Of a stretch of DNA of 52,106 bases, positions 18,799-49,590 are shown in pieces; the first letter of the stretch is position 1, and each line of letters starts with the position of its first letter. The stretch is from a virus: positions 1-52,106 of IMG/VR virus record IMGVR_UViG_3300027741_003749. The stretch is one strand, 5' to 3'. The translations under genes were made by a program, and so were the position numbers. The notes beneath the pieces are model-generated. The model saw nothing but the letters and a program-made list of their open reading frames with translations. It was not told where the DNA came from and did no database searches.

Positions 18799-19776
18799 TT
18801 ATGTATTCCATTCATCAGTATTGAGTAACTTTAGTGTGTGTTCAATTCCATTAAGTCCGTGAATGTAATTTAAATAATACTCTCTTGCGTTATTGCTAAT
18901 GAATTGTAAAAAGTCTATATCATTTTTTACTTGTAAAAATTTTTGTTCTATAAGCCTAGAGTGTTCTTTGGTTGCATTTAATTCCATTTTATGCTCGATT
19001 GGAGGCTGTACTGCTATATAATGAAAATTAGGTATTAAATTAGGACTCATTTCATTAACATACTCAAATCTCAACATTGGAATACCCATAGCCATATACT
19101 CTATATCTCTATAGCACAACTGTGCAGATCCAGCACAAGAAAAACCTACTTTATATTTTATAGCTTCATTTGAATAGTTTTCAAAATTACCAATAGAACC
19201 TCCTCCATAAAATAAATCTCTATTAAAGTATTTTATCATAGGTCTATGTTCAAGACCAGAACCTCTAAAATAAAACTTATCAATTAATTGAGAAATTTTT
19301 TGTCGTTTATGATACAATTCATCTAGATCATATAAATTTGACGGAAAATAAATCCAAGGACTATAGATGGAATCTATTACTTTATTGTAGCAGTGGTGTT
19401 GGATGGATTTTCTATTAAACTGAGAAAGAAGAATTCTACTTATGTATTTTTGTGCTACTTCATTATTAAAAAGACCAAGATTAGCATCTGTAAAATAATC
19501 ACTAACAGATAGTATTTTTAATTGTTTAGTATCATAATTCTCTAAAATCATTTCACATTCTAGCATCAGAGTAGAATGAGAAATATTCATATTATGTTCA
19601 TCATATAAAAGTTTTATTGGATATCTATTTTTATGACAATCAATAAAATACCTATTCTCAATAATATCAAATTTATCTTTTAAAGTTTCTACTAATTGAT
19701 CAAAAAAAATATTGTAATATCTGTATTTTTTAGTGCTAAAATTTGTAGGATTATGTATTATAATTTTTGCTGTCAT
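18799..19776 (-). CDS. glycosyltransferase, GT-B-like (putative)
   Basis: A 325-residue protein with no signal peptide. The C-terminal part has GFSCAGSAQLCYRDIEYMA then GIPMLRFEY, the pattern of the donor-binding helix in GT-B enzymes such as exostosin/GT90 relatives (a conserved Gly/Ser patch, then E..A.G.P). The N-terminal half resembles a Rossmann-like acceptor domain. It overlaps the carbamoyltransferase gene by four bases on the same transcript, so both probably act on one glycan. Donor and acceptor unknown. Confidence 0.6.
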   Translation of the reverse strand: MTAKIIIHNPTNFSTKKYRYYNIFFDQLVETLKDKFDIIENRYFIDCHKNRYPIKLLYDEHNMNISHSTLMLECEMILENYDTKQLKILSVSDYFTDANLGLFNNEVAQKYISRILLSQFNRKSIQHHCYNKVIDSIYSPWIYFPSNLYDLDELYHKRQKISQLIDKFYFRGSGLEHRPMIKYFNRDLFYGGGSIGNFENYSNEAIKYKVGFSCAGSAQLCYRDIEYMAMGIPMLRFEYVNEMSPNLIPNFHYIAVQPPIEHKMELNATKEHSRLIEQKFLQVKNDIDFLQFISNNAREYYLNYIHGLNGIEHTLKLLNTDEWNT

Positions 19777-21350
19777 AGTTTATATACAATAAATTGATCA
19801 GTAAAAATATTGTCAAGTCCTGAGTTTTCTAGCATATACAAAGCATCTTTATACGTATTGATTAGAGGTTTACCATTCACGTTAAAAGAAGTATTCAGTA
19901 ATACCCCTATCCCTGATTCTTTTTCAAATTCTGTTAATAGATCGTACAGAAAAGGATTTTGTTCTCTAGTTACTGTTTGGAGTCTGGCAGTACCGTCTAT
20001 ATGAGTAATAGAGACAAGAGGTTCTTTGAATTCTGGTCGCACATTAGCATAAAAACTCATGAATCTACTTTCTCCGTCAAATTCAAAATACTTATTAGCG
20101 TCTTCTAATCTGACAACTGGAGCAAATGGTCTAAACCATTCTCTTTTTTTAACTTTCTCATTAAGAATATCTTTCATATTAGGGATAGAAGGATTGCACA
20201 GTATGCTTCTATTACCAAGTGCTCTAGGGCCATGTTCTGAGTTTCCAGTTATTGTTCCTGTTATATTTCCATTTTTTAGTAGTTTTGCAGCTTTTTCATG
20301 GGAATATATTTCAGAATGTTTATTCTCTATAATTTCATATATCATATATGGATCTAAAATAGGTAAGCCGGAATATGTAACATCTATTTGATTTGAAGGT
20401 TTTTCATAATCTAATAACATACCAATTGCCAAACCACAATCATTTGAATTTGGTGCGACAAAGACTTCTCTTTTAAAGATTTTTTTTGTTTTAGTATTAC
20501 ATATAACATTCAGTGCGCATCCACCAGTTAAGCATATGGGGAGATTTGGGTATGCATTAATTATAGGAGTTATTAGCTCAAAAAATACCTCTTCAAATGC
20601 TGCTTGAGATGTTGCTGCTATATCTAAAGCTATGTCTCCTTCAAGCCTATTTGATGTGGTGAATATTATTCCAATTTTAGAGCCAACTAGCCCATTAATT
20701 TTTGCTAAATAATCACCTCCATGTGGTTTACTATAATAGTAGTCTTTAAAATATGGGAGCCATTCATTTTTAACTTTTCCATATCCGCAAAGACCCATAA
20801 GCTTACCAGAATAAACTAAGTTTCCCATACCCAATTCAGATTCAAATTTAATTTCTTTTAAGAAATGACCAAAAGACATATAAGCAAATCCAAAATCTAT
20901 TTCAATTCGTTTGATATTTTTTACGCTATTTTCTCTGGTCGCATGGAAAATATTAAAAAATCCATCACTACCACCACCATCGTAACTAATAACTATAGCC
21001 TCTCGAAAATTAGATTGATAAAATGTTCCAGCTGCATGAGCATGATGATGTAAAGAATTGATTCTGTTCTTTGCGTTTATAAATTTTTCATAATGTAAAT
21101 ATTCTTCTCCATATATCACATCGGTATTCGAGTATATTACTGTATCAAACTCTAAACTGATATTGAAATTAGTATGAATATAATTAAGCATTTCCTGTAA
21201 AATAAATTTATTATGATTACATAATAGATATTGAGTCAATCCAAAATTTTTCTTATTAATAAATCTTTCTATTTCTATAACATGATATCTATCTTTGCTT
21301 TTGAATGCAATTCCGCCATTATGCGAACCGTATATTCCAATATTATTCAT
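19773..21350 (-). CDS. NodU/CmcH-family carbamoyltransferase
   Basis: About 525 residues from the ATG at 21350. The N-terminal YrdC-Kae1-like half shows LHHHAHAAGTF (metal-binding histidines) and SYDGGGSDG. The C-terminal domain has NSEHGPRALGNRS and a GVLLNTSFN motif, as in TobZ, CmcH and NodU, which carbamoylate sugars or cephems using carbamoyl phosphate and ATP. The start is chosen one base after the upstream gene's stop; a longer in-frame start would overlap that gene. Inferred role: adding an O-carbamoyl group to a sugar made by the neighbouring GTs. Confidence 0.9.
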   Translation of the reverse strand: MNNIGIYGSHNGGIAFKSKDRYHVIEIERFINKKNFGLTQYLLCNHNKFILQEMLNYIHTNFNISLEFDTVIYSNTDVIYGEEYLHYEKFINAKNRINSLHHHAHAAGTFYQSNFREAIVISYDGGGSDGFFNIFHATRENSVKNIKRIEIDFGFAYMSFGHFLKEIKFESELGMGNLVYSGKLMGLCGYGKVKNEWLPYFKDYYYSKPHGGDYLAKINGLVGSKIGIIFTTSNRLEGDIALDIAATSQAAFEEVFFELITPIINAYPNLPICLTGGCALNVICNTKTKKIFKREVFVAPNSNDCGLAIGMLLDYEKPSNQIDVTYSGLPILDPYMIYEIIENKHSEIYSHEKAAKLLKNGNITGTITGNSEHGPRALGNRSILCNPSIPNMKDILNEKVKKREWFRPFAPVVRLEDANKYFEFDGESRFMSFYANVRPEFKEPLVSITHIDGTARLQTVTREQNPFLYDLLTEFEKESGIGVLLNTSFNVNGKPLINTYKDALYMLENSGLDNIFTDQFIVYKL

Positions 21351-21351
21351 T

Positions 21352-22644
21352 TTATAGGTATCCGATAATAGGGGCAGCCCAGCCTTTTGATACACTATGC
21401 GGCCAGACTATCCAGCTTTTTGGTTTCTCTTGAGTTTGAAATTCTCTCCAAATCTTACAATATCCATCAGGATCATTTTTGAGTCTTTTAATTTCTTCAA
21501 TATCGGCATCCAACCTAAATATATCTTTATCTTCTTTATCTCTGAAAGCAACAGCCCAAAAGGTATAGTCGTTTTCAGGAACTTGTCCATACTGAATATC
21601 TATGCAGTGTTTGAAGATATGAAGTAGGCTCTTATCAAATTCTTCATCCGAAATATTTTTATTTAATGGATCTGGCGGAGATCTATTGTCTTTAACTCTT
21701 TGTTGAATAGCCCGTTTTGAAAAACAAAGACCAGAATATATTTCATAGTCTTTTAATGATCTTTTGTCTCCAAAACCATATGGTCCAAAATCGATATCTC
21801 TTTTTTCACCATCCATTTCAAAAAGTTTTCTATTTCTATTATGTGCATTAGAATTTTTTTCAGCCCATTTGCTATCATCGTCCCATTGTTTTGTTCTTCC
21901 TTTTCTTGTATATTCATGCCAACAATAAATTTTATTAGGATGAAATAGGTCATATCCATGGGTATATGCGCGTACTGCTATACTGATTTCTTCACCATGA
22001 AAATAATAATTAGGATCATGTTGAACTTCTTTGGCAAATTCACCAACAGTAAAAGCGAAGTGAGCGCTATAAAATCTAGCGGGTAATGGTTTTGTTTTGT
22101 CGTCCCACTCATCAAATGTTGCAGGAAGGAAAAAGACTGCTCCTTCTGGTATAAATCTATCAAAATTCATTTTCCATGGAACATTAACACGCAAAGCTGG
22201 ATCGTTATCCGGATCAAAACTAGGAATATAGCTTGTGAGCAATGGTTTGGGGTAGCCTTCTTTTTGCAAATCCTCAATAGTCTGTATCAAATCAATATCC
22301 CAATTCTGAGCAAATCTATGATGGCTATCTAATTGTAGGGTATATTTTTCATTTTTGTATAGTTGTTGGACTAAATTTCTCGCCCAACAAACACCTTTAC
22401 TTTGTTTGTAATCAATATCAATTATACGAAACCTATCATCGTTTCTGTAGTCATCCAGATTGTCCCATAAGTCATCTTTACAGTGTTGCCAACACACACC
22501 TATTCTTAAATTTTTAGGATATTTAGCCTTATCCAGCATGTCCTTTAATGTTAAAACTAGCTGCGGATCTCTATAAGAAGCGATTTGCACAAAAATTGTA
22601 TTGTCATTCTTTATTTTAGTTTTCTTTTCTTTCTTTTGCTTCAT
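21352..22644 (-). CDS. GlcNAc-transferase-like glycosyltransferase (Skp1 GT family)
   Basis: A 430-residue GT-A enzyme. Its beginning (IFVQIASYRDPQL), the GVCWARNLVQ segment, LQLDSHHRF (the DxD-equivalent metal site) and YYFHGEEISIAVR belong to the GlcNAc family that includes Dictyostelium Skp1 prolyl-hydroxyl GlcNAc-transferase and bacterial relatives. In the bacterial members the acceptor is a protein or polysaccharide. The first twelve residues are Lys-rich. The gene overlaps the preceding HtrL fusion by 29 bases and is separated by one base from the carbamoyltransferase. Confidence 0.85.
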   Translation of the reverse strand: MKQKKEKKTKIKNDNTIFVQIASYRDPQLVLTLKDMLDKAKYPKNLRIGVCWQHCKDDLWDNLDDYRNDDRFRIIDIDYKQSKGVCWARNLVQQLYKNEKYTLQLDSHHRFAQNWDIDLIQTIEDLQKEGYPKPLLTSYIPSFDPDNDPALRVNVPWKMNFDRFIPEGAVFFLPATFDEWDDKTKPLPARFYSAHFAFTVGEFAKEVQHDPNYYFHGEEISIAVRAYTHGYDLFHPNKIYCWHEYTRKGRTKQWDDDSKWAEKNSNAHNRNRKLFEMDGEKRDIDFGPYGFGDKRSLKDYEIYSGLCFSKRAIQQRVKDNRSPPDPLNKNISDEEFDKSLLHIFKHCIDIQYGQVPENDYTFWAVAFRDKEDKDIFRLDADIEEIKRLKNDPDGYCKIWREFQTQEKPKSWIVWPHSVSKGWAAPIIGYL

Positions 22645-24271
22645 AAAAATGAACCCTATTATGTGTTATGGGACTAGATAGTAATATTGCAGCACGAACT
22701 TTATTTTCTAAAGTTAGATTGTAGATGTGACTCATCCAAGTTTGCTCAAATGGTCTTTCCCATTTAGTATCTAAAAACAACTTTTTATTTCCTTCTTGAT
22801 CTATTATATGAGGCCAATTAGAGTAGTAAATCTGTCCTTCTACATAAGGAACTCTATTATTGGTTTTTATGTATTTAAATTTAGTAAGAGGTCTTTTATT
22901 GATATTACCAAAATATTTAACTTTATTTTCCATTGGAACATTATGCCAACTCCATTGCTCTCCATTATGACCATAAAATTCGCTAAAGCTAAATTTTAGA
23001 AAATCATACTCCTCAAGATCCATGATTCTAATAAGATTATCAAAAAAATTATCTACATATTTAGATAGACCAAATGTGCATCTAGTATTTTTTTCTAAAT
23101 CTATTAGCATATCATCTTCAAAAAACATCATATATTTTGAACCCAATTCAGCAAAATGTTCTGCGGCTAATTGACGACCACCACAAACACCAATATTACC
23201 TTTTCTTATTTCTGTAAAACCATATTTAGCGGAAATAGTGTCGTATTGAGGGAATAGTTCTGATTTAGTGGTGTTATTGATCAGGTATTTATCTGTTTTA
23301 TTGAGAAAGTTTTGATCGTATTGTTCAAATGAATCAATTACCATCTGTAGTTGTTCTGGAGAATTAAAAGCATTAATATAAAGCACAACATTATTATTTT
23401 TTGGTTGAATTCTGTTTGAAATTTTTTGTGATAATTTTGTTGTATTATTTTTGACATTTTCAAAAAATGTATTAATTAAACCATTATCTTGTATCTCTTC
23501 ATATTCATATGTGTCTGGTTCTAGATATGTCATTAGTGTAAAGATACTCTCTTCTGTACCCATAAAACCAGCATCTAATGTGTCTTTCAGCAGGGAATAG
23601 TATAGTTGATTTGCTCCAAATATGTATTCTTTATGTCCTCCAAAAAATCCTCCCCTAGCAACTCTGTCTACAATAGGTGAATTAGCAAATTTTTTCATAC
23701 CCTCAATATTAAAACCATGTATTTCTGTAGTTGTCTCGTACGGGAAGCACACAAACAGAAATTTTTTAACTAATTGCTCAATCTTAGAAATCACCATATC
23801 TTGTGCAAAATATCCTGGATGTACGGTATTGGTTAATCCCCCATCTATCCAGAAATAATAATCACTATTAAATGTATTATATATTTTAGCATTATGCAAT
23901 AAAAACATTTTGCTCATTACTAAGGGATTGTAATACTCTAAAACCGATTGAGTACTATCTTTAAGCCAACCAACTTGGTTTTTCCACTCCTCGTTGTTCC
24001 GTATTTGCTGAACTTTATCAAAAAATGGAAAAAAACTACCGCTAAAATTCTCTTTTGTGTGATGATGAACAGCAGTATTAGTCCTATCTCTGTTGCTCCA
24101 TACTATATCTTCATTATTTGGGTCTATAAAAATAGTCATAGGAATATCTTTGCAAGCTCGCATTAGCTTAACGAAATTGCTGATATAGTGATCAAAATTT
24201 CTAGACCACTCCACCGATGCTTGGGATCTACCTAAATCCCATATGCCTGTAACTAAGGTAGTATTACTCAT
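22616..24271 (-). CDS. HtrL/YibB-like domain fused to a second GT
   Basis: A 551-residue two-domain protein. Residues 1-260 match the HtrL/YibB (WlaTC) family: LVTGIWDLGR at the start, MTIFIDP and FWIDGGLTNTVHP about residue 150. Residues 300-551 form a second GT-A domain with VLYINAFNSPEQ, GNIGVCGGRQ and MFFEDDMLI (a DxD-like EDD). The start is placed at 24271 since the residues before it have no GT character. It is the first gene of the minus-strand operon, with a promoter at 24334-24306. A fused pair suggests two consecutive sugar additions. Confidence 0.7.
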   Translation of the reverse strand: MSNTTLVTGIWDLGRSQASVEWSRNFDHYISNFVKLMRACKDIPMTIFIDPNNEDIVWSNRDRTNTAVHHHTKENFSGSFFPFFDKVQQIRNNEEWKNQVGWLKDSTQSVLEYYNPLVMSKMFLLHNAKIYNTFNSDYYFWIDGGLTNTVHPGYFAQDMVISKIEQLVKKFLFVCFPYETTTEIHGFNIEGMKKFANSPIVDRVARGGFFGGHKEYIFGANQLYYSLLKDTLDAGFMGTEESIFTLMTYLEPDTYEYEEIQDNGLINTFFENVKNNTTKLSQKISNRIQPKNNNVVLYINAFNSPEQLQMVIDSFEQYDQNFLNKTDKYLINNTTKSELFPQYDTISAKYGFTEIRKGNIGVCGGRQLAAEHFAELGSKYMMFFEDDMLIDLEKNTRCTFGLSKYVDNFFDNLIRIMDLEEYDFLKFSFSEFYGHNGEQWSWHNVPMENKVKYFGNINKRPLTKFKYIKTNNRVPYVEGQIYYSNWPHIIDQEGNKKLFLDTKWERPFEQTWMSHIYNLTLENKVRAAILLSSPITHNRVHFYEAKERKEN

Positions 24272-24305
24272 GATATTAGTATATAATAATCTCCGGGGCT
24301 GTACA

Positions 24306-24334
24306 ATACTAATTCCGTTTGTCCACCGTGTCAA
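24306..24334 (-). promoter_or_regulatory. minus-strand promoter of the GT operon
   Basis: TTGACA (24334-24329 minus), a 17-base spacer and TAGTAT (24311-24306). It faces away from the plus-strand promoter 24 bases along. Its -10 box is weaker than consensus. Confidence 0.6.
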
Positions 24335-24357
24335 TTTTACAAAATTTTGTTTGGAGC

Positions 24358-24385
24358 TTGACAGAAATAGGTCCAACCATATAAT
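24358..24385 (+). promoter_or_regulatory. plus-strand promoter, divergent
   Basis: TTGACA (24358-24363), a 16-base spacer and TATAAT (24380-24385), reading to the gene at 24417. Together with the minus-strand promoter it forms a back-to-back pair separating the two GT islands. Confidence 0.72.
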
Positions 24386-29105: not shown

Positions 29106-29312
29106 ATGCCTAAATACTATGTTAAATCTGGTCATTTAAAGTTTATTATAGATTGTTCCGATCAAGATACTGCCATAATGAAGTCAATTAAAAGATATAA
29201 GGGCAGAGGATATATGCTTGGACCTAAAATATGCATTAGCGAACAAGGATTTGAAGATTTTAAACACTGGACCTGTTATGATTCCGATACTTACTTGAAT
29301 AGAGATTATTGA
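29106..29312 (+). CDS. conserved phage protein (68 aa)
   Basis: About 68 residues starting MPKYYVKSGHLKFIIDCSD, with GPKICISEQGF in the middle. Proteins with this MPK[YF].VKSG / GPKI..SE pattern recur in large aquatic phages and have no known function. ATG at 29106, three bases after the previous stop. The stop shares a base with the next ATG. Confidence 0.65.
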   Translation: MPKYYVKSGHLKFIIDCSDQDTAIMKSIKRYKGRGYMLGPKICISEQGFEDFKHWTCYDSDTYLNRDY

Positions 29313-30463
29313 TGATAAAATTAGTAAATGATACAATTTCTTTTGAGGAAATAGACGAGCTATGCAAATGGCTTCAAACTTATCCCCAATTAACCAAAGG
29401 AAAACTGACAGAAAAATTCGAAGAACAATGGTCTTCATGGATTGGTTGTAAATACTCTGTTTTTGTGAATTCTGGATCGTCTGCAAATTTAGCAATGGCT
29501 CATGTGGCTAAGATCAGTGGACTATTAAGAAATAATAAAATCATTGCTCCGTGCCTATGTTGGGCAACAACGATTAGTCCATTCATGCAACTTGGATTCG
29601 ATATAATCTTATGTGATACAGACAGACGAAATCTTGGCATGGATCCAGGTCATTTTGAAAAATTATGCGAAAAATATAAGCCATCTTGCGCTATTCTTAC
29701 ACATATCCTTGGATTCCCAAACGATATGGAACATATACTTAAAATATGTAAAACATATGATATTTTGGTATTAGAAGATACTTGTGAAAGTGTTGGAAGT
29801 AAATTTAATGGACAACATTTAGGACTCTTTGGCTCCATGTCTTCCTTTTCTGCTTACTTTGGACACCATTTTTCTACCATAGAGGGAGGATTGATTTCAA
29901 CTAATAGTTTTGAATTATATGAACTATTAAAGTCTATACGATCTCATGGATGGAGCAGAGATCTTAGTGACACAACTAAAAAACAATTGCAAGAGAAATA
30001 CAATATAGATAAATTCAATGATATGTATACCTTTTATCATTCTGGGTTTAATATTAGGTCAACGGACCTACAAGCTTTTCTTGGTATTTCTCAGCTAAAA
30101 ACCTTGGATTATAAAAATTCTATACGCTATAAAAATCTTATCTCGTATGATAGTCTAATCGAAAACGGTTTTTGGAAAATAGATATATCTCAATTTGATT
30201 TTATTAGTAATTTTGCATATCCGATCATTCATCCTAAAAAAACAGAAATTGCCTCCGCCCTAATTTCTGCAAATATAGAGTGCAGACCACTTGTTTGTGG
30301 AAACATTGGTAAGCAACCTTTTTATTCATCGATATATGGATTGAATAAATATGATTTTGCAGATATTGTTCATGAGTACGGATTATATGTTCCTAACCAT
30401 CCAGATTTAACATATTCTGATATTGAACAGATTAGCAATATCATAAACAACATAACCAAATAA
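29312..30463 (+). CDS. DegT-family PLP enzyme with His-His at the Lys site (sugar 3-dehydratase-like)
   Basis: A 383-residue fold-I PLP enzyme. Where sugar aminotransferases have the Schiff-base lysine, this one has AYFGHHFSTIEGG (His185-His186). That substitution is the hallmark of the sugar 3-dehydratases ColD and the CDP-sugar enzyme E1/RfbH, which remove the 3-OH of 4-keto-6-deoxyhexoses instead of transferring an amine. Other PLP contacts (NSGSSANLA, EDTCES) are conserved. The downstream gene at 33981 resembles GDP-fucose synthase/ColC, so a GDP-linked 3,6-dideoxyhexose is plausible. Overlaps both neighbours by one base. Confidence 0.82.
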   Translation: MIKLVNDTISFEEIDELCKWLQTYPQLTKGKLTEKFEEQWSSWIGCKYSVFVNSGSSANLAMAHVAKISGLLRNNKIIAPCLCWATTISPFMQLGFDIILCDTDRRNLGMDPGHFEKLCEKYKPSCAILTHILGFPNDMEHILKICKTYDILVLEDTCESVGSKFNGQHLGLFGSMSSFSAYFGHHFSTIEGGLISTNSFELYELLKSIRSHGWSRDLSDTTKKQLQEKYNIDKFNDMYTFYHSGFNIRSTDLQAFLGISQLKTLDYKNSIRYKNLISYDSLIENGFWKIDISQFDFISNFAYPIIHPKKTEIASALISANIECRPLVCGNIGKQPFYSSIYGLNKYDFADIVHEYGLYVPNHPDLTYSDIEQISNIINNITK

Positions 30464-31230
30464 TGAATGACTATATAGAGACTAAGGCTCAAATTATCCA
30501 TAGAATTATAGATATATGCTTCTCTAACAAAGAAGGGCATGTAGCTAGTTCATTATCTGTATTGGATTTAATCTATTACATATACAAAGACCATATTACT
30601 ACCAATAACCAAAATAAATTTGTTCTATCCAAAGGACACGCTTCTTTAGGTCTATACGCTATACTGGAACATTTTAATATACTCACATCACAAGAGTCTC
30701 TAGAAACCTTTTGTTCTTTTGATTCTGTTCTAGGAGGACATCCCACGGTTAAAGTTTCGGGAGTAGAAGCCTCCACAGGATCGCTGGGACACGGTATGCC
30801 AATATCGGTCGGGATGGCACTTGCCAAAAAGATAAAAAATGAACCAGGTATTATATTTTGCCTCATAGGAGATGGAGAAGCTAACGAAGGAACAATATGG
30901 GAAAGCGCACTACTAGCGTCTCATCACCAATTAAATAATCTCTGCTGTATTCTAGATCGCAATAAATCAACTGATCGGGCTCTAAGTATAGGAAATATGA
31001 TTAAAAAATTTGAAGCCTTTGAATGGAATACAAAATCTATAGATGGTCATAATTCTGAAGAAATCAAATCGTCTATTAACTCCGCCTTTAACAGTAGTCG
31101 TCCTTTATTCATTGAAGCAAACACAACTAAAGGAAAAGGATGCTCTATCATGGAAAATAACCCAGAATGGCATCACAAAATACCTAATTCAACAGAATAT
31201 CGGTCTCTTCTTGAAAGTATAGTTCGATGA
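30463..31230 (+). CDS. transketolase N-terminal (ThDP-binding) subunit
   Basis: A 255-residue split transketolase half. SKGHASLGLYA contains the family's GHAS-type motif. TGSLGHGMPISVG and IGDGEANEG...E are the thiamine-diphosphate binding GDG...N-type motif. The C-terminus ends soon after, as in two-subunit transketolases. It needs the next gene product for an active site. In sugar clusters such halves move or add a two-carbon unit. Confidence 0.88.
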   Translation: MNDYIETKAQIIHRIIDICFSNKEGHVASSLSVLDLIYYIYKDHITTNNQNKFVLSKGHASLGLYAILEHFNILTSQESLETFCSFDSVLGGHPTVKVSGVEASTGSLGHGMPISVGMALAKKIKNEPGIIFCLIGDGEANEGTIWESALLASHHQLNNLCCILDRNKSTDRALSIGNMIKKFEAFEWNTKSIDGHNSEEIKSSINSAFNSSRPLFIEANTTKGKGCSIMENNPEWHHKIPNSTEYRSLLESIVR

Positions 31231-32102
31231 GAAAACAATTTATTAAAAGCCTACAAAATATTCTATACAAGGACACTCGTACTGTTTTATTATTAGGAGA
31301 TATTGGCGTTTTTGGATTTAGAGAAGAACTTAAAAATATACCTTCACGAACATATAATATTGGAATACTAGAACAGTCCATGATAAGTGTCGCTGCTGGT
31401 CTCAGTCTTTCGGGTTTCATTCCATTCATTCATACTATAGCTCCTTTTTTAGTAGAAAGAGCTTTCGAGCAACTCAAGATTGATTTTGGATATCAGGAAT
31501 TATATGGAAATTTTATTACAGTAGGTAATTCATATGATTATTCAGCATTGGGATGTACACACCACTGTCCTGGAGATATTCAACTAATATCTTCTATTCC
31601 AAACTTTAGAATATATGCCCCAGGAACAAGTTTAGAATTTGATACCTTATTATCTCATCAATATGATAATAAATTTGCTAATTATTGGAGACTAAGCGAA
31701 TATGAAAACAAGAATAGTATGGATGTAATTTCTGGCAAAGCCAATGTGATTAAAAAAGGAGACTTGGCTACTATAGTGGTATACTCTACTATGCTTGATA
31801 GAGTTGTTGAAGCTTGCAAAGATCTTGATGTCACAATTCTTTACTATACTACTATTATACCTTTTGACTCAGATACTCTACTACAAAACTTAAACAGTAA
31901 AATTATTGTGTGCGAACCATTTTATGAATCAAGTACTAATATGCTGATAAGTAGAGAACTAACTAAGCACAATCATTCTATAATAAATATAGGTGTTCCT
32001 AGGTTTTTTTTAAAAAACTATGGATCAAAACAAGAGCAAGACAGTTTTCTAAAATTAGATCAGCAAAACATTAGATATAGGATTATTGAATGTCTAAAGT
32101 AA
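31227..32102 (+). CDS. transketolase C-terminal (pyrimidine-binding) subunit
   Basis: A 291-residue partner half. IGILEQSMISVAAGL contains the conserved Glu that activates thiamine. FIHTIAPFLVERAFEQ and the CTHHCPGDIQ loop follow, then a transketolase C-terminal fold. The ATGA overlap with the N-terminal subunit shows coupled translation in 1:1 ratio. Likely acts on the dideoxy-keto sugar made next door rather than in central metabolism; that is inference from linkage. Confidence 0.85.
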   Translation: MRKQFIKSLQNILYKDTRTVLLLGDIGVFGFREELKNIPSRTYNIGILEQSMISVAAGLSLSGFIPFIHTIAPFLVERAFEQLKIDFGYQELYGNFITVGNSYDYSALGCTHHCPGDIQLISSIPNFRIYAPGTSLEFDTLLSHQYDNKFANYWRLSEYENKNSMDVISGKANVIKKGDLATIVVYSTMLDRVVEACKDLDVTILYYTTIIPFDSDTLLQNLNSKIIVCEPFYESSTNMLISRELTKHNHSIINIGVPRFFLKNYGSKQEQDSFLKLDQQNIRYRIIECLK

Positions 32103-33118
32103 TATCCCAATACACAATAAACACTTTTGAGAAAATAGGTCTTGAGCCATTAAGAAATAAGACCATCCTTATTACTGGTTCAAGTGGACTAATAGGAATA
32201 AATATACTTTCACTATTACAGAATCTCAGAAAACAGCTAAATATAAAAATATATTGTTGGTCTCTTTCTCCTATATCTAGTTATTTTAATGAAATTTTTG
32301 ATGGCTGTATGATTATTAATTCCGACCTATCTGATAATCATACAAAAATACCGAATGATCTAATTGGTGCTTTTGATTTTATATTTCATTGTGCTGGATA
32401 TGGACAACCACAAAAATTTATTGAAAACAAAATTTCTACCATTAATATAAATACACAAAGTATAATCTTGTTATTTTCTCTATTAAAATCTAATGGATCG
32501 TTTTTGTATTGCAGTAGTAGTGAGATATATAGCGGATTAGATATTGAAAAAATATCTGAAAAAGATATTGGAACAACCTCTCCAGATCATCCAAGAGCAT
32601 GCTATATAGAGAGCAAAAGATGTGGAGAAGCTATATGTAATATTTTTGCTGATAGTAATCCAGAACAAAATATTAAAATTGCTAGAATAAGTACCGTATA
32701 TGGTCCTGGAGCCAAGTTGAACGATACCAGAGTTTTGAATTCATTAATACAAAAAGCACTCAATAATAAACGAATAGAGATGCTAGATAGTGGTTCTTCC
32801 ACCAGAACTTTTTGCTATACTGACGACGCTATAGAAATGCTGCTCACCATACTTCTTCATGGAAAACAAAGAACCTATAATATTACTGGTATTGATATAT
32901 TAACCATCAAAGAAGTGGCATCGATAATAGCAAAAACAACATCGTCAGAACTAATTATCCCAACTAGCAATAACGGCTTAATTGGAAATCCTAAAACAGT
33001 AATACCGACTATAGATAGATATATATCTGAGTTTGGAAATAAATCTTTTATGTCATTTGAATCAGGTATTGAAAATACTATTTCATGGTTTAAAGACTTA
33101 CTATCATCTAATAATTAA
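32090..33118 (+). CDS. NAD-dependent epimerase/dehydratase (extended SDR)
   Basis: A 342-residue extended SDR. LITGSSGLIG is the nucleotide loop, CSSSEIYSG and CYIESKR supply the active-site Ser/Tyr/Lys (YxxxK), and VYGPGAKLND is the family's proline loop. Relatives include dTDP-glucose/GDP-mannose 4,6-dehydratases and UDP-glucuronate decarboxylase; the exact reaction is not readable. It may supply the 4-keto-6-deoxy substrate for the 3-dehydratase or reduce its product. Overlaps the transketolase gene by 13 bases. Confidence 0.82.
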   Translation: MSKVISQYTINTFEKIGLEPLRNKTILITGSSGLIGINILSLLQNLRKQLNIKIYCWSLSPISSYFNEIFDGCMIINSDLSDNHTKIPNDLIGAFDFIFHCAGYGQPQKFIENKISTININTQSIILLFSLLKSNGSFLYCSSSEIYSGLDIEKISEKDIGTTSPDHPRACYIESKRCGEAICNIFADSNPEQNIKIARISTVYGPGAKLNDTRVLNSLIQKALNNKRIEMLDSGSSTRTFCYTDDAIEMLLTILLHGKQRTYNITGIDILTIKEVASIIAKTTSSELIIPTSNNGLIGNPKTVIPTIDRYISEFGNKSFMSFESGIENTISWFKDLLSSNN

Positions 33119-33138
33119 TCCAGAAAGAAAAATAAATA

Positions 33139-33984
33139 ATGTTACTATCTATCTTAGTACAAGGAAAAAATGATAACTATGGATCTGACGATAATGGAGT
33201 TGGCGGAGTTTCCCAAAGACTAAAATTAAGCTTAAATAAACTAGCAGACAATATTAATAAGCTTAATAAAAAAGATATTGAAATTGTTCTTTGTGACTGG
33301 GGTTCAGAACAAAAAATAGTTACCGATTTATTGACAATAAAATGTCCACAATTAAAATGTATTTATGTTAGTCCAGAAATAGGCAAAAAATATAGTAAAG
33401 AATCTAATTATTCTATATCTCATGCGTATAATGTTGCTTTTAGACATAGCTCTGGAGAGTATAGAATTTTTTGGGATTCAGACTGTTATATGAGATACGA
33501 AGATATGTTAAAACTATATGAGTTTGTTGTTTTACTAAAGACATTAAATATTCAAGATACTTTTTTTTGGGGATCAAGATACCATGTTCCGCGACCCATA
33601 TGGAATGAATGTAAAGATTTTCAAGAGATAGATAATTTTTTTATTAATGGAGACATATCTAAGTTCAGACACGATAAAATTAATCTAGAGAGTTTCGGTG
33701 GCTGTGCTATGGCATTATTAATACATAAAGACATGGGCTATGAAAGTACCTGCTGGTGGGAAGAACTTCCTTATTGGGGATGGCAAGACATAGAATTACA
33801 TTATAGACTAGCTTCAAGATATAGACTAGGCGTGGATCTAGAAGACCAAGACATGTCATTCTTCCATTTAGATCATCATGATTCTAAACAGGAAAAGCTT
33901 ATTAATCAATATGTTTTTCCAAAATACTTTAATGTCAATAATAATAACTGGGGATTACTAGATGAAAATCTAGAAATTATATGA
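33139..33984 (+). CDS. glycosyltransferase, GT-A
   Basis: A 281-residue enzyme. ISHAYNVAFRHSSGEY then IFWDSDCYM (DSD metal site), plus GGCAMALL and GWQDIELHYRL (E-D acceptor loop), match GT2/galactosyltransferase-like GTs. It lies within the sugar cassette and overlaps the GDP-fucose-synthase-like gene by four bases, so it probably transfers the new sugar. Confidence 0.78.
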   Translation: MLLSILVQGKNDNYGSDDNGVGGVSQRLKLSLNKLADNINKLNKKDIEIVLCDWGSEQKIVTDLLTIKCPQLKCIYVSPEIGKKYSKESNYSISHAYNVAFRHSSGEYRIFWDSDCYMRYEDMLKLYEFVVLLKTLNIQDTFFWGSRYHVPRPIWNECKDFQEIDNFFINGDISKFRHDKINLESFGGCAMALLIHKDMGYESTCWWEELPYWGWQDIELHYRLASRYRLGVDLEDQDMSFFHLDHHDSKQEKLINQYVFPKYFNVNNNNWGLLDENLEII

Positions 33985-34889
33985 AAAATATCTTAATTAC
34001 TGGCGGAAATGGAATGCTTGGATCTCATATTAATTTTGGTTTCAAACCAACATCACAAGAGTTAGATCTTAAAAACTACAATAGTATTGTAAAATATATA
34101 AAAGATCATAATATTACGGAATTAGTACACGCAGCAGGAAGAGTTGGTGGAGTCAGAGCTAATGACTTATATACTTATGATTTTTTGATTGATAATCTAG
34201 ATATGAATATGAATGTTATAAAAGCTTGCAAAGAATTAAATCTATCTAAAATAACCTTATTATTATCTACCTGTGTATTTCCAGTTAGTCTCGACAGAGA
34301 AACCACTGAAGCAGATTTACATACCGGAGAGCCTCATCCAACAAATATAGGCTACGCATATGCTAAAAGGTTTTTAGAAATAGCAGGTAGATGTTTGAAT
34401 AAACAATTTGGCATAAATTCCTCATGTATTGTTCCATGCAATATGTATGGATTTAATGATAATTATAATCTAGAAAATAGCCATGTCGTCCCTGGATTAA
34501 TTCATAAATGCTATTTAGCACAACAAACAAATACAGACTTTATGATATGGGGATCAGGTAAAGGAGAAAGAGAATTTCTATTTGCTGGTGATATGGCAAA
34601 AATACTAAAAATGATTCATTTGGACAAAATTAATATTCCAGAACTAATGATAGTATCACCGGGACAAACATATACAATTAAAGATGTCGTTGACTTAATT
34701 GTTAAACAGTTTAATTTCAAAGGGAAAGTAGTATTCGATACTAGCAAACCAGAAGGAGCAATAAAGAAAAGTTCCTCAAATAAAATTTTTAGAGACATAT
34801 TTCCTACTTTTAAATTTACTGATTTAGAAAATGGACTAGCAATCACAATAGAAGATTTCATCAGAAACTATACAACATTAAGAAAATAA
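33981..34889 (+). CDS. GDP-fucose synthase/ColC-like epimerase-reductase
   Basis: A 302-residue SDR. ILITGGNGMLG is the NADP loop. AAGRVGGVRANDL is a signature of GDP-4-keto-6-deoxymannose epimerase-reductases. TCVFP and GYAYAKR give the catalytic Cys/Ser, Tyr and Lys. GDP-fucose synthase and colitose synthase ColC share this build. With the His-type PLP enzyme upstream, the ColC reaction (3-deoxy product) is the better guess, but fucose synthase cannot be excluded. Confidence 0.85.
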   Translation: MKNILITGGNGMLGSHINFGFKPTSQELDLKNYNSIVKYIKDHNITELVHAAGRVGGVRANDLYTYDFLIDNLDMNMNVIKACKELNLSKITLLLSTCVFPVSLDRETTEADLHTGEPHPTNIGYAYAKRFLEIAGRCLNKQFGINSSCIVPCNMYGFNDNYNLENSHVVPGLIHKCYLAQQTNTDFMIWGSGKGEREFLFAGDMAKILKMIHLDKINIPELMIVSPGQTYTIKDVVDLIVKQFNFKGKVVFDTSKPEGAIKKSSSNKIFRDIFPTFKFTDLENGLAITIEDFIRNYTTLRK

Positions 34890-34897
34890 GGATAATA

Positions 34898-35995
34898 ATG
34901 TTAATCAGTCAAGATATTAAGTTAGATTACGACGATGTCCTCATTGTACCACAAAGAACAACGCTTGAAAGCAGAAAAGATGTTTATTTGGAAAGAGAGT
35001 TTAAATTTTACCATAGTCCAAGAATTTGGAAGGGAATCCCGATAGTCTGCTCAAACATGGTACCATTAACCTCTAAAGCTATGGCCATACAACTATCTGC
35101 ACATAAAATGGTTACAGCACTACACAAATATTATTCAGCATCAGAGATATTTGATATTATTCAAGATTCAGGTATTGATTATACATGGATGTCTATAGGA
35201 AAATCCGATCAAGAGATAGACCGTATAAAAGAAGTGTCTAATTTATTAGGTCGGTCTCCAAATATCGTTATTGATGTACCAAATGGGTATATGGAATCCT
35301 TTGTATTATTTTGTCAAAAAATTAGAGAGCACTTTCCAGACAGTATCATATGTGCCGGTAATGTTACAACACCAGAAATTTGCGAAGAATTAATTATTCA
35401 TGGTGGAGTAGATATTTGTAAAATTCAAATCTCTCCAGGATCTCAGTGCGAAACGCGTAAAATGACTGGGGTTGGATATGGGACATTTTCATGTATTCAT
35501 GAGTGTTCTCATGCTGCTCATGGTTTAAAATCAAAGTCTGGTCATCTTGGACTGGTTATGACAGACGGTGGCTGTAAGACTCCGGGAGACATTTGTAAAG
35601 CCGTGTGTGGAGGATCTGATTGGGTGATGCTTGGAGGTATGTTCGCCGGTACTGAAGAATGCGACGGAGAATGGACTTATGAGTATTTATGCAATAAGGC
35701 TGGGCTAGCTGGAGAATTCTGGCAACCCTTTTCACCAGGATATGAAACAAAAAAAAGAAAAACTAGTCTAATATTCTACGGCATGTCAAGTCATTATGCT
35801 CAAGAAAAACACGGAGTTGGAAAAAAACAATACAGGGCTTCTGAAGGTAAAGTATCAAAAATATCATACAAGGGACCGGTAGATGATATTATTCAAGAAA
35901 TACTTGGTGGACTGCGTAGTTGTGGAGCATATATAGGAGCTAAATATCTAAAAGACTATTCTAAATGTGCAAAATTTATCAAAATAAATAGGTAA
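34898..35995 (+). CDS. guaC: GMP reductase (IMPDH/GMPR family)
   Basis: A 365-residue TIM-barrel enzyme. GSQCETRKMTGVGYG is the family's catalytic Cys-x-Thr loop in its GMP-reductase form, VMTDGGCK and VMLGGMFAG bind the phosphate, and there is no CBS pair as in IMPDH. It would convert GMP to IMP with NADPH. Sitting in a GDP-sugar cassette, it may recycle the guanine nucleotide released by glycosyl transfer or shift the host purine pool. AAGGATAATAATG supports the start. Confidence 0.85.
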   Translation: MLISQDIKLDYDDVLIVPQRTTLESRKDVYLEREFKFYHSPRIWKGIPIVCSNMVPLTSKAMAIQLSAHKMVTALHKYYSASEIFDIIQDSGIDYTWMSIGKSDQEIDRIKEVSNLLGRSPNIVIDVPNGYMESFVLFCQKIREHFPDSIICAGNVTTPEICEELIIHGGVDICKIQISPGSQCETRKMTGVGYGTFSCIHECSHAAHGLKSKSGHLGLVMTDGGCKTPGDICKAVCGGSDWVMLGGMFAGTEECDGEWTYEYLCNKAGLAGEFWQPFSPGYETKKRKTSLIFYGMSSHYAQEKHGVGKKQYRASEGKVSKISYKGPVDDIIQEILGGLRSCGAYIGAKYLKDYSKCAKFIKINR

Positions 35996-35998
35996 CCA

Positions 35999-37057
35999 AT
36001 GAATATAAACATTTCTGCACCAATAAATCATACTGGATATGGTATTGCTTCTTTAAATATTATTAAACAACTAGCTACTAAAACTAAAATAGCTTATTTT
36101 CCAATAGGCAATCCCAACGTTGATAATCAAGAAGAGTATAATCTTATATCTTCCCTGATATATAATAGCAGGGACTGCAAGGTTGATGCTCCATTTTTAA
36201 AAATTTGGCATCAATTCGATTTACTAAATCGTATAGGACGTGGAAAATATTATGCTTTACCCTTTTTTGAATTAGATAAATTTAATGAGCTAGAAAAAAA
36301 ACATATGACAGTACCAGATACTTTATTGGTATCAAGCAATTGGGCTAAAAATGTAATAATATCTAATAATATTCAGACACCCATCGAAGTTGTTCCATTA
36401 GGAGTAGATCTTTCAATATTCGATCAGTCTCTTTATCAAAAAGAACAACTAGACGATTATGTATTTTTAAATATTGGTAAATGGGAAATTAGAAAAGGAC
36501 ATGACATATTATATTCTTTATTTAAACAGGCTTTTCCAAATGAAAAAGATGTAAAATTAGTCTTATTAGCATCAACAACAACTAACTCATATTCTTCTAA
36601 AGAAGAAGTTCAACAGTGGAGGAAACTATATTCATCTAATAATATCAGTGTTATTGATGGCGTTTCTTCGCACACCGACGTTGCAAAATTAATGTCACAA
36701 AGTGATTGTGGTATTTTTCCATCTAGAGCAGAAGGATGGAATTTAGAATTATTGGAAATGATGGCAATGAATAAACCAGTAATAGCAACAAATTATTCCT
36801 CTCATACTGAATTTTGTAATTCTGATAATGCATATATGGTAGAAATAAAAGAAACAGAACCCGCTTATGACGGAAAAGCTTTTAATGGACAAGGTAACTG
36901 GGCTAAAATATCGCAAGATCAAAAAGATCAAATTATCGAGCACATGAGATATCTATATAAAAATAGAATCAATTCTAATGAAAATGGCATAAATACGGCT
37001 AAAAAATTCTCTTGGGAAAATACAGCCTCTAAGATATTGGGTGTATTTAACGAATAA
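35999..37057 (+). CDS. glycosyltransferase family 4 (GT-B)
   Basis: A 352-residue GT4 enzyme. VPLGVDLSIF, NIGKWEIRKGHD, PSRAEGWNLELLEMMA with the E-x7-E donor motif and NKPVIATNYSSH are all visible. It uses a nucleotide-sugar donor with retention of configuration. It closes the sugar cassette, three bases after the GMP reductase, and is followed by the first virion-type gene. Confidence 0.88.
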   Translation: MNINISAPINHTGYGIASLNIIKQLATKTKIAYFPIGNPNVDNQEEYNLISSLIYNSRDCKVDAPFLKIWHQFDLLNRIGRGKYYALPFFELDKFNELEKKHMTVPDTLLVSSNWAKNVIISNNIQTPIEVVPLGVDLSIFDQSLYQKEQLDDYVFLNIGKWEIRKGHDILYSLFKQAFPNEKDVKLVLLASTTTNSYSSKEEVQQWRKLYSSNNISVIDGVSSHTDVAKLMSQSDCGIFPSRAEGWNLELLEMMAMNKPVIATNYSSHTEFCNSDNAYMVEIKETEPAYDGKAFNGQGNWAKISQDQKDQIIEHMRYLYKNRINSNENGINTAKKFSWENTASKILGVFNE

Positions 37058-43255: not shown

Positions 43256-44131
43256 ATGGATTTAAATATGGATAGTATTACGAATTTAACTAGCTATAAA
43301 TACTCTAGTGTATCCACGCCTACTCCAACTCCAACGCCTGTTTTTTCTTTTAAAACGTATGGGGCTAGGTTTCCCACCATCACTAAAGACGAATTAATTA
43401 TTCAGCTAACTGATCTAATAATTAATCATCAATATAAAGTATCTTTAATTCCTGATAACGGCAATTCGCTAGAGACCTCTTCTTTCTCATTTTATGCTAC
43501 TTCTACTAAAAAAACTATAAAAACAAATTTAATTAAAAGCATTTATACAAAAATTGTTAATATTGAAATATCTATTAATAATCTTACTGAAGACACCTAT
43601 ATAAACTATCCTACATTTGTTAAATGCTATGATTATGATGAATGTAGTACAATATGTTTAACTAGCTATACTTATGTCGATACTATTAACGATAATTATA
43701 GGTTCTCATTTGCTAATAATCATATTCCTTTTAGTCCTGAAGTTAGTGACTATAAACTAGGATATGGAATTGGTACTTATATACTTAAAAACGTACCTCA
43801 AAATCATCCAATAGCGATACTGAATAAAGGATATGAAACCTTTATTTCTTATTATGGAGATTCTACTAAACTTTTACAAAAAGCTGTTGATGGAATAGAA
43901 TACAATTTTTATTATGGAGACGTTACTTTATTAGTAAATGGAGTTGGAACACGACCTCCTTTATTGAGTTATTATTGTTATTATGATGGATATATGGGAG
44001 GCCAAGATCGTTTAATCTTCAATAGAGAGTCATGCATCATTCTCACTCCAACTCCATCTATTACTCCTACCATCACGCCGAGCAGATCGTATAGTGGTTT
44101 CTTTCCTTTCAATATAAACTATGTCCCATAA
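43256..44131 (+). CDS. phage surface protein with TP repeats and a cupredoxin-like tail
   Basis: A 291-residue protein. An N-terminal TPTPTPTP linker (residues 21-28) and a second TPTPSITPTITPS linker near the end flank beta-rich domains. The segment HPIAILNKG..FISYYGD and CYYDGYMGGQDRL is a hallmark of a His-Gly-containing beta domain common on marine-phage virion surfaces, proposed to be cupredoxin-like. Start is 43256 or 43268 (both ATG). It overlaps the RgpF-like GT gene by 11 bases, suggesting that the virion surface is the glycan acceptor. Confidence 0.55.
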   Translation: MDLNMDSITNLTSYKYSSVSTPTPTPTPVFSFKTYGARFPTITKDELIIQLTDLIINHQYKVSLIPDNGNSLETSSFSFYATSTKKTIKTNLIKSIYTKIVNIEISINNLTEDTYINYPTFVKCYDYDECSTICLTSYTYVDTINDNYRFSFANNHIPFSPEVSDYKLGYGIGTYILKNVPQNHPIAILNKGYETFISYYGDSTKLLQKAVDGIEYNFYYGDVTLLVNGVGTRPPLLSYYCYYDGYMGGQDRLIFNRESCIILTPTPSITPTITPSRSYSGFFPFNINYVP

Positions 44132-45065
44132 AAATAAAAAAATAGCTGTACTATTATGGTTATTTCATACCGACCTATGGGATGAATTTTATTCTAAACT
44201 ATATCCGCTAAAAGAATATATTCATTTATATTTAGGTATTGATCCTACAAAATCTAATGCAGCATCAATTGCGAATCAAGCAAATGAAAAATTTTCCAAC
44301 ATAACTATCAAGTATTACCCAAATGCCGGTGGAGACATCCTACCTTTTCTGAATCAAATCTCTGATTTGTCTAATGATAAACATGATATTTTTTTAAAAC
44401 TCCACTCTAAAAAAAGTAAACTATTTAACTATATGAACTGGAGAATAGTATTATTAGAAAGTTTAATTGGAAATCAGAAAAAATTTCTTAAAAATATTCA
44501 ACAATTTGATCAAAATGAGACAGGGTGTGTTTGCAACAAGTCTTTACTATTAAATAATCAAGAACATACCAATACAGAACATATACAAAAACTTTGTAAT
44601 ATTTTAGAGATAGACTATCATAATTGTAATAATAAGAGTTTTGCCGCAGGCAGTATGTTTTTTGGCAAGGTCTCACTATTTCAAAAATATTTTAATTCTT
44701 ATACCCTACCAGAACTTTCTCGTTTACTTCAAAATGAAGTTGGTCATGTTACAGACAATATAGAAGGTAAATATTGTCATGCTTTAGAAAGAATATTCGG
44801 ATATCTTGTATTGGCCAATAATCTTAAATTTAAATTCTGTATAGAAGACAAAATAAAGATCCTCAACAAACTTGCACCAAACAAAAAATTGCATATAATT
44901 AAACTATATAATGAATATTGTTATGCAGAGGAGGATCCTCATGTTTATGGTCGAATCCTAAAAGATGTTGGGGACCACATGATTATAGAATGGCACCACA
45001 TCAACCCCAACCCTATTGCTAAATATAAAAAAATAAATAAAAATTCCATGATCAGAACCATATAA
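44121..45065 (+). CDS. RgpF-like (rhamnan synthesis F) glycosyltransferase
   Basis: A 314-residue enzyme with the RgpF family's NAGGDILPFL, FLKLHSKKSK (Lys-His-Lys segment), FAAGSMFFGK and ALERIFGYL. These transfer deoxyhexoses such as rhamnose in cell-wall polysaccharides. First GT of the second island, starting within the end of the surface-protein gene. Confidence 0.85.
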   Translation: MSHKNKKIAVLLWLFHTDLWDEFYSKLYPLKEYIHLYLGIDPTKSNAASIANQANEKFSNITIKYYPNAGGDILPFLNQISDLSNDKHDIFLKLHSKKSKLFNYMNWRIVLLESLIGNQKKFLKNIQQFDQNETGCVCNKSLLLNNQEHTNTEHIQKLCNILEIDYHNCNNKSFAAGSMFFGKVSLFQKYFNSYTLPELSRLLQNEVGHVTDNIEGKYCHALERIFGYLVLANNLKFKFCIEDKIKILNKLAPNKKLHIIKLYNEYCYAEEDPHVYGRILKDVGDHMIIEWHHINPNPIAKYKKINKNSMIRTI

Positions 45066-45066
45066 A

Positions 45067-46311: not shown

Positions 46312-46320
46312 AAATTACCT

Positions 46321-46974: not shown

Positions 46975-46994
46975 TATAAAAAGTTAAAGAGTAT

Positions 46995-49575: not shown

Positions 49576-49590
49576 GGGTGATAGAATAAA

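Follow-up and report, generated by a model that had tools for sequence, protein, structure and literature searches.

Six consecutive genes of a virus would, on our preferred reading, supply a GDP-activated 3,6-dideoxy sugar bearing a two-carbon branch, a yersiniose-like product for which a transketolase replaces the branching enzyme YerE; judged from gene content and residues, we put the odds of this at about even (roughly 0.5). If true, this would be the first transketolase family found in nature to be devoted to making tertiary alcohols on sugars, a matter named as an open question in a 2025 review (PMC12247030), and it would offer numerous sequences marked by a distinct active-site signature. 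Phages would then also carry modular gene sets for producing rare branched sugars, probably altering virion or host surface glycans. Transfer of a hydroxyacetyl unit onto a keto sugar has been proposed for transketolases but never demonstrated (PMC12247030). Somewhat more tentatively, the two transketolase halves (TKN and TKC) and the short-chain dehydrogenase/reductase behind them (SDR1) may constitute a widespread, unrecognised branching module acting on GDP-4-keto-6-deoxy sugars, with interchangeable C3 steps (ColD or methyltransferase) and C5 steps (Fcl- or RmlC-type), through which phages, bacteria and archaea would make a family of branched octoses.

The cassette and its relatives

The window referred to throughout is the whole 52,106-nt stretch of IMG/VR record IMGVR_UViG_3300027741_003749, not the cassette alone. 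At 29312-34889 it holds six intact ORFs on one strand, in the order originally proposed (Table 1). Neighbouring ORFs mostly overlap by 1-13 bases, with a single gap of 20 bases between SDR1 and GT2, in keeping with the near-zero spacing described at the outset, and both SDRs match Pfam Epimerase (1.5e-35 and 6.5e-36). The conserved block extends past SDR2, taking in a GMP-reductase-like gene and then a GT4 that ends at 37057.

Table 1. Genes of the cassette and its conserved downstream neighbours (window coordinates)
Gene	Position	Strand	Length	Assignment
DegT	29309..30463 (TTG 29309) or from ATG 29312	+	384 aa	ColD-type PMP-dependent sugar 3-dehydratase
TKN	30463..31230	+	255 aa	split transketolase, N-terminal half
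TKC	31227..32102	+	291 aa	split transketolase, C-terminal half
SDR1	32090..33118	+	342 aa	extended SDR, proposed NADPH-dependent hydroxyacetyl-branch reductase
GT2	33139..33984	+	281 aa	family-2-like glycosyltransferase; Pfam Glyco_tranf_2_2 1.9e-7
SDR2	33981..34889	+	302 aa	GDP-fucose synthase/ColC-type epimerase-reductase
GMP reductase-like gene	34898..35995	+		NCBIfam 8.2e-114, under cut-off; syntenic neighbour
GT4 glycosyltransferase	35999..37057	+		Pfam Glycos_transf_1 1.7e-16; syntenic neighbour

The cassette order is repeated in three other viruses (L008, L035 and L030, the last with fragmented ORFs), and the longest sister virus reaches 187 kb. GT2 keeps its position in L008 and L035, the GMP-reductase-like gene sits at the same place in all three, and that gene and GT4 are syntenic in sisters. 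Since the order is kept in these viruses and the family E-values are low, a chance assembly is excluded. Recent acquisition was considered and rejected on base composition, the G+C of the cassette (0.313 against 0.328, z -0.5) showing no deviation.

A constant core with alternating partners

SDR1 accompanies this type of transketolase in 41 of 42 viral loci, the remaining locus ending at a contig edge, and lies immediately behind TKC in 34 of those 41; TKN-TKC-SDR1 is the conserved core, and ColD and SDR2 are the variable parts. The same core is found in diverse bacteria and archaea and in many uncultivated phages, and the cassette is neither phage-specific nor a viral invention. Around the core, SDR2 and an RmlC-like gene never occur together (0 of 48; alone in 21 and 16, p 6e-6), and ColD and the methyltransferase MT6 do so once in 48 (p 9e-7), both p-values ignoring relatedness, with several switches along the tree. 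Such a pattern suggests that SDR2 and the RmlC-like enzyme are alternative C5 steps, and ColD and MT6 alternative C3 steps, about an unchanging core. RmlC-type loci have no dedicated C4 reductase, and their C4 ketone must therefore have another use. MT6 gave a good predicted fold.

A probable GDP-mannose route and the colitose alternative

The original prediction of a PLP-type sugar 3-dehydratase with His-His at the catalytic lysine was borne out. DegT belongs to the DegT/DnrJ/EryC1/StrS family (Pfam PF01041, 1.6e-53), and His-His replaces its PLP-binding catalytic lysine, FGHHFSTIEGG aligning with YSHHIATMEGG of ColD; the pair is retained in 22 of 23 viral homologues, the exception being the distant L043. 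Its best PDB match is ColD/WbdK (1.1e-56, 195.9 bits), against 3.9e-33 (118.5 bits) for E1. We infer strongly from this likeness that DegT is ColD-like, and it is predicted to strip the C3 hydroxyl from GDP-4-keto-6-deoxy-D-mannose. SDR2 proved to be the GDP-fucose-synthase/ColC-like member that had been expected among the two SDRs: it matches NCBIfam GDPFucSynFcl at 2.3e-59 with 201.4 bits, under the curated cut-off of 500 bits, a PDB match at 5.7e-64 points to the same type, and the catalytic S107, C109, Y136, K140 and H179 are all there.

The GDP-mannose 4,6-dehydratase (Gmd) for which a look elsewhere in the genome had been suggested is absent from the 52,106 nt of the window and present in the 187-kb sister, close to the terminase gene (G026:10589-11557). 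Gmd also adjoins the core in many loci, and in cellular genomes 9 of 15 such transketolases have it no more than 10 kb away, versus 2 of 37 others (Fisher 6e-5, a value that ignores relatedness). The genes that accompany the core, namely Gmd, ColD and Fcl, all belong to the GDP-mannose route. That the cassette serves a 3,6-dideoxy GDP-sugar, as first claimed, is well supported by these sequence comparisons, with ColD the best solved relative of DegT and Gmd in the sister virus.

The main rival, which we consider unlikely, is that Gmd, DegT (as ColD) and SDR2 (as ColC) make ordinary GDP-L-colitose, and that TKN, TKC and SDR1 make an unrelated sugar from the same operon. ColD with ColC is the known colitose route, and one operon here holds both a ColD-type DegT and the full Fcl/ColC residue set, with Gmd in sister genomes. 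The cassette departs from that route, however, in adding TKN, TKC and SDR1, which are the constant part of these loci whereas ColD or SDR2 vary; moreover, an RmlC-type epimerase can stand in for SDR2, and L011, L013, L020 and L021, RmlC-type loci that also have ColD and Gmd, lack Fcl/ColC. An IspD-type cytidylyltransferase is absent from the 19 viral records, many of which are fragments, and an NTP_transferase occurs in only 2 of the 19; a second activated sugar therefore finds little support. The absence of such a cytidylyltransferase from these 19 records also led us to reject a CDP-alditol route.

SDR1 as a candidate branch reductase

SDR1 lies away from the GDP-fucose enzymes, nearest to UDP-xylose synthase (UXS) and CDP-6-glucitol synthase (PDB matches UXS1 at 7.6e-27 and 8v4g at 4e-20), the former being the closest by sequence. 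Its AF2 model (pLDDT 91.8) carries a helix at residues 2-13 ahead of the Rossmann fold and fits 8v4h (VIA Z 37.0 over 321 residues) and UXS (36.2) equally well; GDP-mannose 3,5-epimerase likewise has an N-terminal part that aligns with SDR1. The T/S, Glu and YxxxK pattern is present, with Glu, Tyr and Lys invariant in 51 sequences, and the active-site Asn of UXS (N179 in EvdS6; RIFNTFGP in hUXS1) is gone, replaced by L in 45, T in 3 and S in 3 of the 51. At the end of beta-2, where an acidic residue denotes NAD use, SDR1 of the window has Ser, and for at least 24 of 26 sequences the listed residues include neither D nor E; a UXS-like control (L061:15936-16868) has Asp there. By these residues SDR1 falls short of a true UDP-xylose synthase.

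The Campylobacter jejuni HS5.17 CDP-6-D-glucitol synthase (8v4g/8v4h), jointly with UXS the closest fold, has a pre-Rossmann helix, as the SDR1 model does, and also lacks the UXS Asn, but identity is 22%, its cytidylyltransferase partner is missing from the 19 viral records, and SDR1 has L, T or S in place of its sugar-contacting Gln196. As 8v4h reduces the 2-ketone of CDP-6-fructose, a hydroxyacetyl group (PMC10918830), we propose from the model that SDR1 resembles a reductase of a hydroxyacetyl ketone.

Two other roles for SDR1 appear improbable. It could be a UDP-glucuronate decarboxylase giving a UDP-4-keto-pentose for the transketolase to branch, and its sequence proximity to UXS1 agrees with this, as does the proposal that the UXS-like EvdS6 supplies a thiamine enzyme (PMC10338323): in everninomicin eurekanate, a UXS-like SDR (EvdS6) and a two-subunit thiamine enzyme (EvdU5/EvdS3) are proposed for C4 branching. 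That enzyme, however, is of the pyruvate-dehydrogenase type and handles an acetyl unit and a pentose acceptor; the decarboxylase Asn, important for turnover, is present in EvdS6 and lost from SDR1, the terminal Asp of beta-2 is missing, and the core keeps company with GDP-mannose-route genes. Of similarly low probability is a deoxysugar C4 ketoreductase, the transketolase then performing another carbon-carbon reaction or using free sugars. SDR1 is indeed the sole SDR beside Gmd in RmlC-type loci, and epimerase and C4 reductase are separate enzymes in Campylobacter heptose routes (PMC7949155); yet SDR1 is retained even alongside SDR2, a complete epimerase-reductase, which would make it redundant, and it tracks the transketolase, not Gmd or RmlC.

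A transketolase with a remodelled acceptor side

Both halves of the split transketolase were recovered as foreseen. TKN matches Pfam Transketolase_N at 2.9e-33 (best PDB 6yak, 3.1e-44), and TKC matches Transket_pyr at 1.5e-14 and Transketolase_C at 1.1e-5 (best PDB 6yaj, 1.3e-16). The thiamine-diphosphate site and donor histidines are kept, as H26, H66, H100, D155, N185 and H261 in TKN and E411 and H473 in TKC, and R358 is retained. On the acceptor side, S385, H461, D469 and R520, which contact sugar phosphate or acceptor hydroxyls in E. coli TktA, have become F, G, L and E in the window, and F434 has become I; the four are replaced in nearly every clade member, with the signature x-G-L-E, and F434 is replaced too. 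These transketolases form one clade (SH-aLRT 99; 48 rows, 42 with SDR1). Other split transketolases, from an actinobacterial sample, have also lost H461, D469 and R520, yet do not have the G-L-E set, and because they share the loss, it is not in itself proof of a ketone acceptor. Replacement of the TktA acceptor and phosphate residues and the strict SDR1 partnership nevertheless make it very doubtful that this is a normal pentose-phosphate transketolase, an auxiliary metabolic gene by which the phage would divert sugar phosphates of its host, even with split transketolases as the nearest PDB relatives of TKN and TKC.

The idea that the pair forms the branch draws its support from comparison, through the invariant SDR1 partnership, the remodelled acceptor side and the likeness of SDR1 to a hydroxyacetyl-ketone reductase; the donor, acceptor and product of the step we infer.

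Comparison with known branching systems

YerE is a thiamine enzyme that branches C4 of an NDP-4-keto-3,6-dideoxyhexose arising from a PMP-type 3-dehydratase (PMC12247030), and the cassette is alike in this sequence of steps. In that yersiniose route of Yersinia O-antigen, however, the enzyme is a one-chain decarboxylase type (AHAS-type) using pyruvate and a CDP-sugar, whereas here a two-chain transketolase accompanies GDP-route genes, and TKN departs from the single-chain AHAS type with a TPP_enzyme_C match of just 6.6e-4. TKN also differs from AviB1/AviB2 (E1-type alpha-keto acid dehydrogenase), matching E1_dh at 3e-8 against the far stronger Transketolase_N.

For miharamycin and amipurimycin, a split-gene transketolase has been proposed, and is unproven, to move hydroxyacetyl onto a keto sugar, and the 2025 review knows of no more than 13 putative split transketolases with ketone acceptors, every one of them from Streptomycetes and none yet tested (PMC12247030). 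As described, these resemble the present pair in their split genes and proposed transfer; they are known from Streptomycetes clusters only, whereas ours stands among surface-sugar genes of a GDP-mannose route, in viruses and uncultivated prokaryotes, and always with SDR1. Cassette DNA returned zero matches in a similarity search of GenBank phages, whose records contain no transketolase half above about 38% identity, and the literature on phage colitose or transketolase sugar routes offered nothing closer; within these searches, the assertion that no such phage pathway had been described holds.

A proposed pathway

Gene content, residues and association patterns were observed directly, and the branched-sugar reading would connect them as follows. 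Gmd, encoded by the host or by another part of the phage genome as in the sister virus, would yield GDP-4-keto-6-deoxymannose, from which DegT, acting as ColD, very probably takes off the C3 hydroxyl. Thiamine-dependent TKN/TKC may then move a hydroxyacetyl unit from a donor to the C4 ketone, giving a tertiary alcohol, and SDR1 with NADPH would reduce the branch ketone to a 1,2-dihydroxyethyl group. SDR2 would perform C5 (C3/C5) epimerisation, as the RmlC-like enzyme would in other loci, and the GT might, at a guess, attach the sugar to a glycan of the virion or of the host surface. Modification of DNA with sugars was rejected as a destination, no thymidylate-synthase/hydroxymethylase family gene occurring in the window or the 187-kb sister. 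One related contig does carry a gene of that family.

Organisation of the cassette

Within the window, a linear IMG/VR virus record of 52,106 bases, six open reading frames encode, in order, a ColD-type 3-dehydratase (DegT), the N- and C-terminal halves of a split transketolase (TKN, TKC), an extended SDR (SDR1), a glycosyltransferase (GT2) and a GDP-fucose-synthase/ColC-type SDR (SDR2). Family searches concurred with the family calls of the original prediction, and the near-zero spacing it described takes the form of overlaps of 1-13 bases and a single 20-base gap. The cassette stands among phage genes, near an rIIB homologue (7e-72) and a sigma-70 region 4 protein, and its G+C content (0.313) does not differ from that of the rest of the window (0.328). 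The abundance of glycosyltransferases in the window suggests virion or host-surface glycans as the destination of the sugar; a thymidylate-synthase-type gene, a possible pointer to DNA modification, was not found in G026, a 187-kb contig from a sister virus.

Locations of the cassette and associated features
Feature	Location	Strand	Remarks
DegT-TKN-TKC-SDR1-GT2-SDR2 cassette	window 29309-34889	+	six open reading frames
GMP-reductase-like gene (GMPR)	window 34898-35995		constant downstream neighbour of the cassette in four related viruses
GMP-reductase-like gene, L030	L030:13409-14047		
RuvB-like Holliday-junction helicase	window 14174-15103		3.8e-46
Actin-like protein	window 15432-16433		Pfam Volactin match (1.5e-63), in a phage
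Second glycan-modification cluster	window 18799-24376	-	carbamoyltransferase, GlcNAc-type glycosyltransferase, HtrL/YibB-like protein
Further glycosyltransferase-like genes	window 44121-50493		RgpF-like, exostosin GT47, weak GT2-like
GDP-mannose 4,6-dehydratase (Gmd)	G026:10589-11557		E 2.4e-116; 384.6 bits, under the 415-bit cut-off
HAD-hydrolase-like/nucleotidyltransferase fusion	L035:4605-5966		upstream of DegT; none in window

Three related viral loci (L008, L030 and L035, the last on G026) carry the window's block NDT-DegT-TKN-TKC-SDR1-GT2-SDR2-GMPR-GT4 at ~50-70% protein identity, with extra genes inserted in places. L030 is otherwise syntenic, its cassette genes being split into several reading frames through either sequencing errors or decay. 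The catalytic-cysteine motif of the GMP-reductase-like gene reads GSQCETR in the window versus GSVCTTR in L030, and the activity of the window copy may therefore differ.

A constant core and its link to GDP-mannose

When viral contigs were scanned with TKN, 46 loci emerged. TKN, TKC and SDR1 are constant across them, and the presence of DegT, SDR2, Gmd, an RmlC-like epimerase and a methyltransferase of 303 aa (MT6) varies. SDR1 is present in 41 of the 42 viral loci with a transketolase of the window's type (the remaining one, L019, stops within TKC), and in 34 of those 41 it starts no more than 40 bases from the end of TKC. Scanning bacterial and archaeal genomes recovered the same core in Patescibacteria, Omnitrophota, Bdellovibrionota, Actinomycetota, Nanoarchaeota and Alphaproteobacteria, including Pelagibacteraceae. 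In the tree, window-type transketolases form a single clade (SH-aLRT 99; 48 rows, 42 with SDR1) enclosing a viral subclade of 26 rows (support 99). Given this distribution over viruses, bacteria and archaea, the cassette is a widespread module for surface sugars that viruses did not invent.

Among cellular genomes, 9/15 clade transketolases have Gmd within 10 kb, versus 2/37 other split ones (Fisher 6e-5), which ties the module to the GDP-mannose route. The original prediction had suggested seeking Gmd elsewhere in the genome: the window, a fragment of a genome, has none, and for the sister virus the answer is yes, G026 carrying one directly upstream of genes for a terminase-like protein and structural proteins.

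The closest solved relative of DegT is ColD, the GDP-4-keto-6-deoxymannose 3-dehydratase (195.9 bits), with the CDP enzyme E1 well behind (118.5 bits). The predicted His-His at the catalytic lysine aligns with that of ColD and recurs in 22 of 23 DegT proteins of related viral loci, the exception being the distant L043; judged by this motif, these proteins are dehydratases rather than aminotransferases. SDR2, already recognised as GDP-fucose-synthase/ColC-like, matches E. coli Fcl at all five catalytic positions, and scores under the NCBI cut-off for its GDP-fucose-synthase-type family.

A remodelled transketolase

In alignment with E. coli TktA, the clade retains H26, H66, H100, D155, N185, H261, E411 and H473, which serve thiamine diphosphate and the two-carbon donor end. 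Replacements fall on the side that binds the sugar phosphate and acceptor hydroxyl in TktA: S385 becomes F, W, Y or H, F434 I, H461 G, D469 L and R520 E, where 20 canonical split transketolases in the same alignment set have S-H-D-R at 385/461/469/520. These changes are consistent with a bulky acceptor that carries no sugar phosphate, for example a nucleotide sugar, with the caveats that R358 is retained and that the same residues are also missing from some actinobacterial split transketolases that lack the core; only the x-G-L-E combination is peculiar to the clade. The altered phosphate site makes hydroxypyruvate or a free ketose no less likely a donor than a ketose phosphate. Actinomycetota split transketolases at L115-L123 bear other substitutions at the acceptor site and are possibly further branching enzymes.

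Among thiamine enzymes, YerE-like decarboxylases and pyruvate-dehydrogenase-type pairs are known to form two-carbon branches, whereas branching by transketolases has only been proposed, for miharamycin and amipurimycin; the 13 putative branching transketolases are all split, all from Streptomycetes and none tested (PMC12247030). Patescibacteria phages have been reported with nucleotide-sugar genes including gmd, in a main text that does not mention transketolase (PMC12911398), and GenBank phage records hold no TKN relative above ~38% identity. There is hence a real chance that the core transketolases will be the first branching family of this enzyme class to be characterised.

SDR1 as a predicted branch reductase

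In sequence comparisons, human UDP-xylose synthase comes closest to SDR1 (197.8 bits, profile), followed by C. jejuni 8v4g (178.8 bits). Its AlphaFold model (pLDDT 91.8) best matches 8v4h (Z 37.0, 321 residues, 2.4 A), effectively a tie with UDP-xylose synthase (Z 36.2, 305 residues, 2.1 A). The 8v4h enzyme performs NADPH-dependent reduction of the 2-ketone of CDP-6-fructose (PMC10918830), a carbonyl adjoining CH2OH; a sugar branched by a transketolase would bear this same group. SDR1 retains the Ser/Thr, Glu, Tyr and Lys; at the position of the decarboxylase Asn, required by EvdS6 (PMC10338323), 45 of 51 SDR1 proteins have Leu, whereas 8v4g has Gln. The end of beta-2 lacks the acidic residue found in the UDP-xylose-synthase-like protein of L061, pointing to NADPH use and net reduction. 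On the strength of the likeness to 8v4h, the missing Asn and the non-acidic beta-2 end, we therefore take SDR1 to be a predicted branch reductase.

Combinatorial gene content and proposed chemistry

Among 48 non-redundant clade loci, none has both an SDR2-type and an RmlC-type gene (alone in 21 and 16; p 6e-6), and one has both ColD and MT6 (alone in 19 and 21; p 9e-7), both p-values ignoring relatedness. Well-supported branches force at least 4 to 7 switches of each gene label on the tree, and the mutual exclusion therefore does not stem from a single inheritance event. ColD and MT6 would be alternative treatments of C3, and SDR2 and RmlC alternatives for C5 (or C3/C5) epimerisation. RmlC-type loci with ColD and Gmd are left with no dedicated C4 reductase, which means that something else must use up the C4 ketone: the transketolase would do this by adding a two-carbon unit, and SDR1 would reduce the resulting branch. 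MT6, a SAM methyltransferase of roughly 303 aa (L006, L033, L049 and others) that almost never accompanies ColD, is a candidate C3 or O3 methyltransferase.
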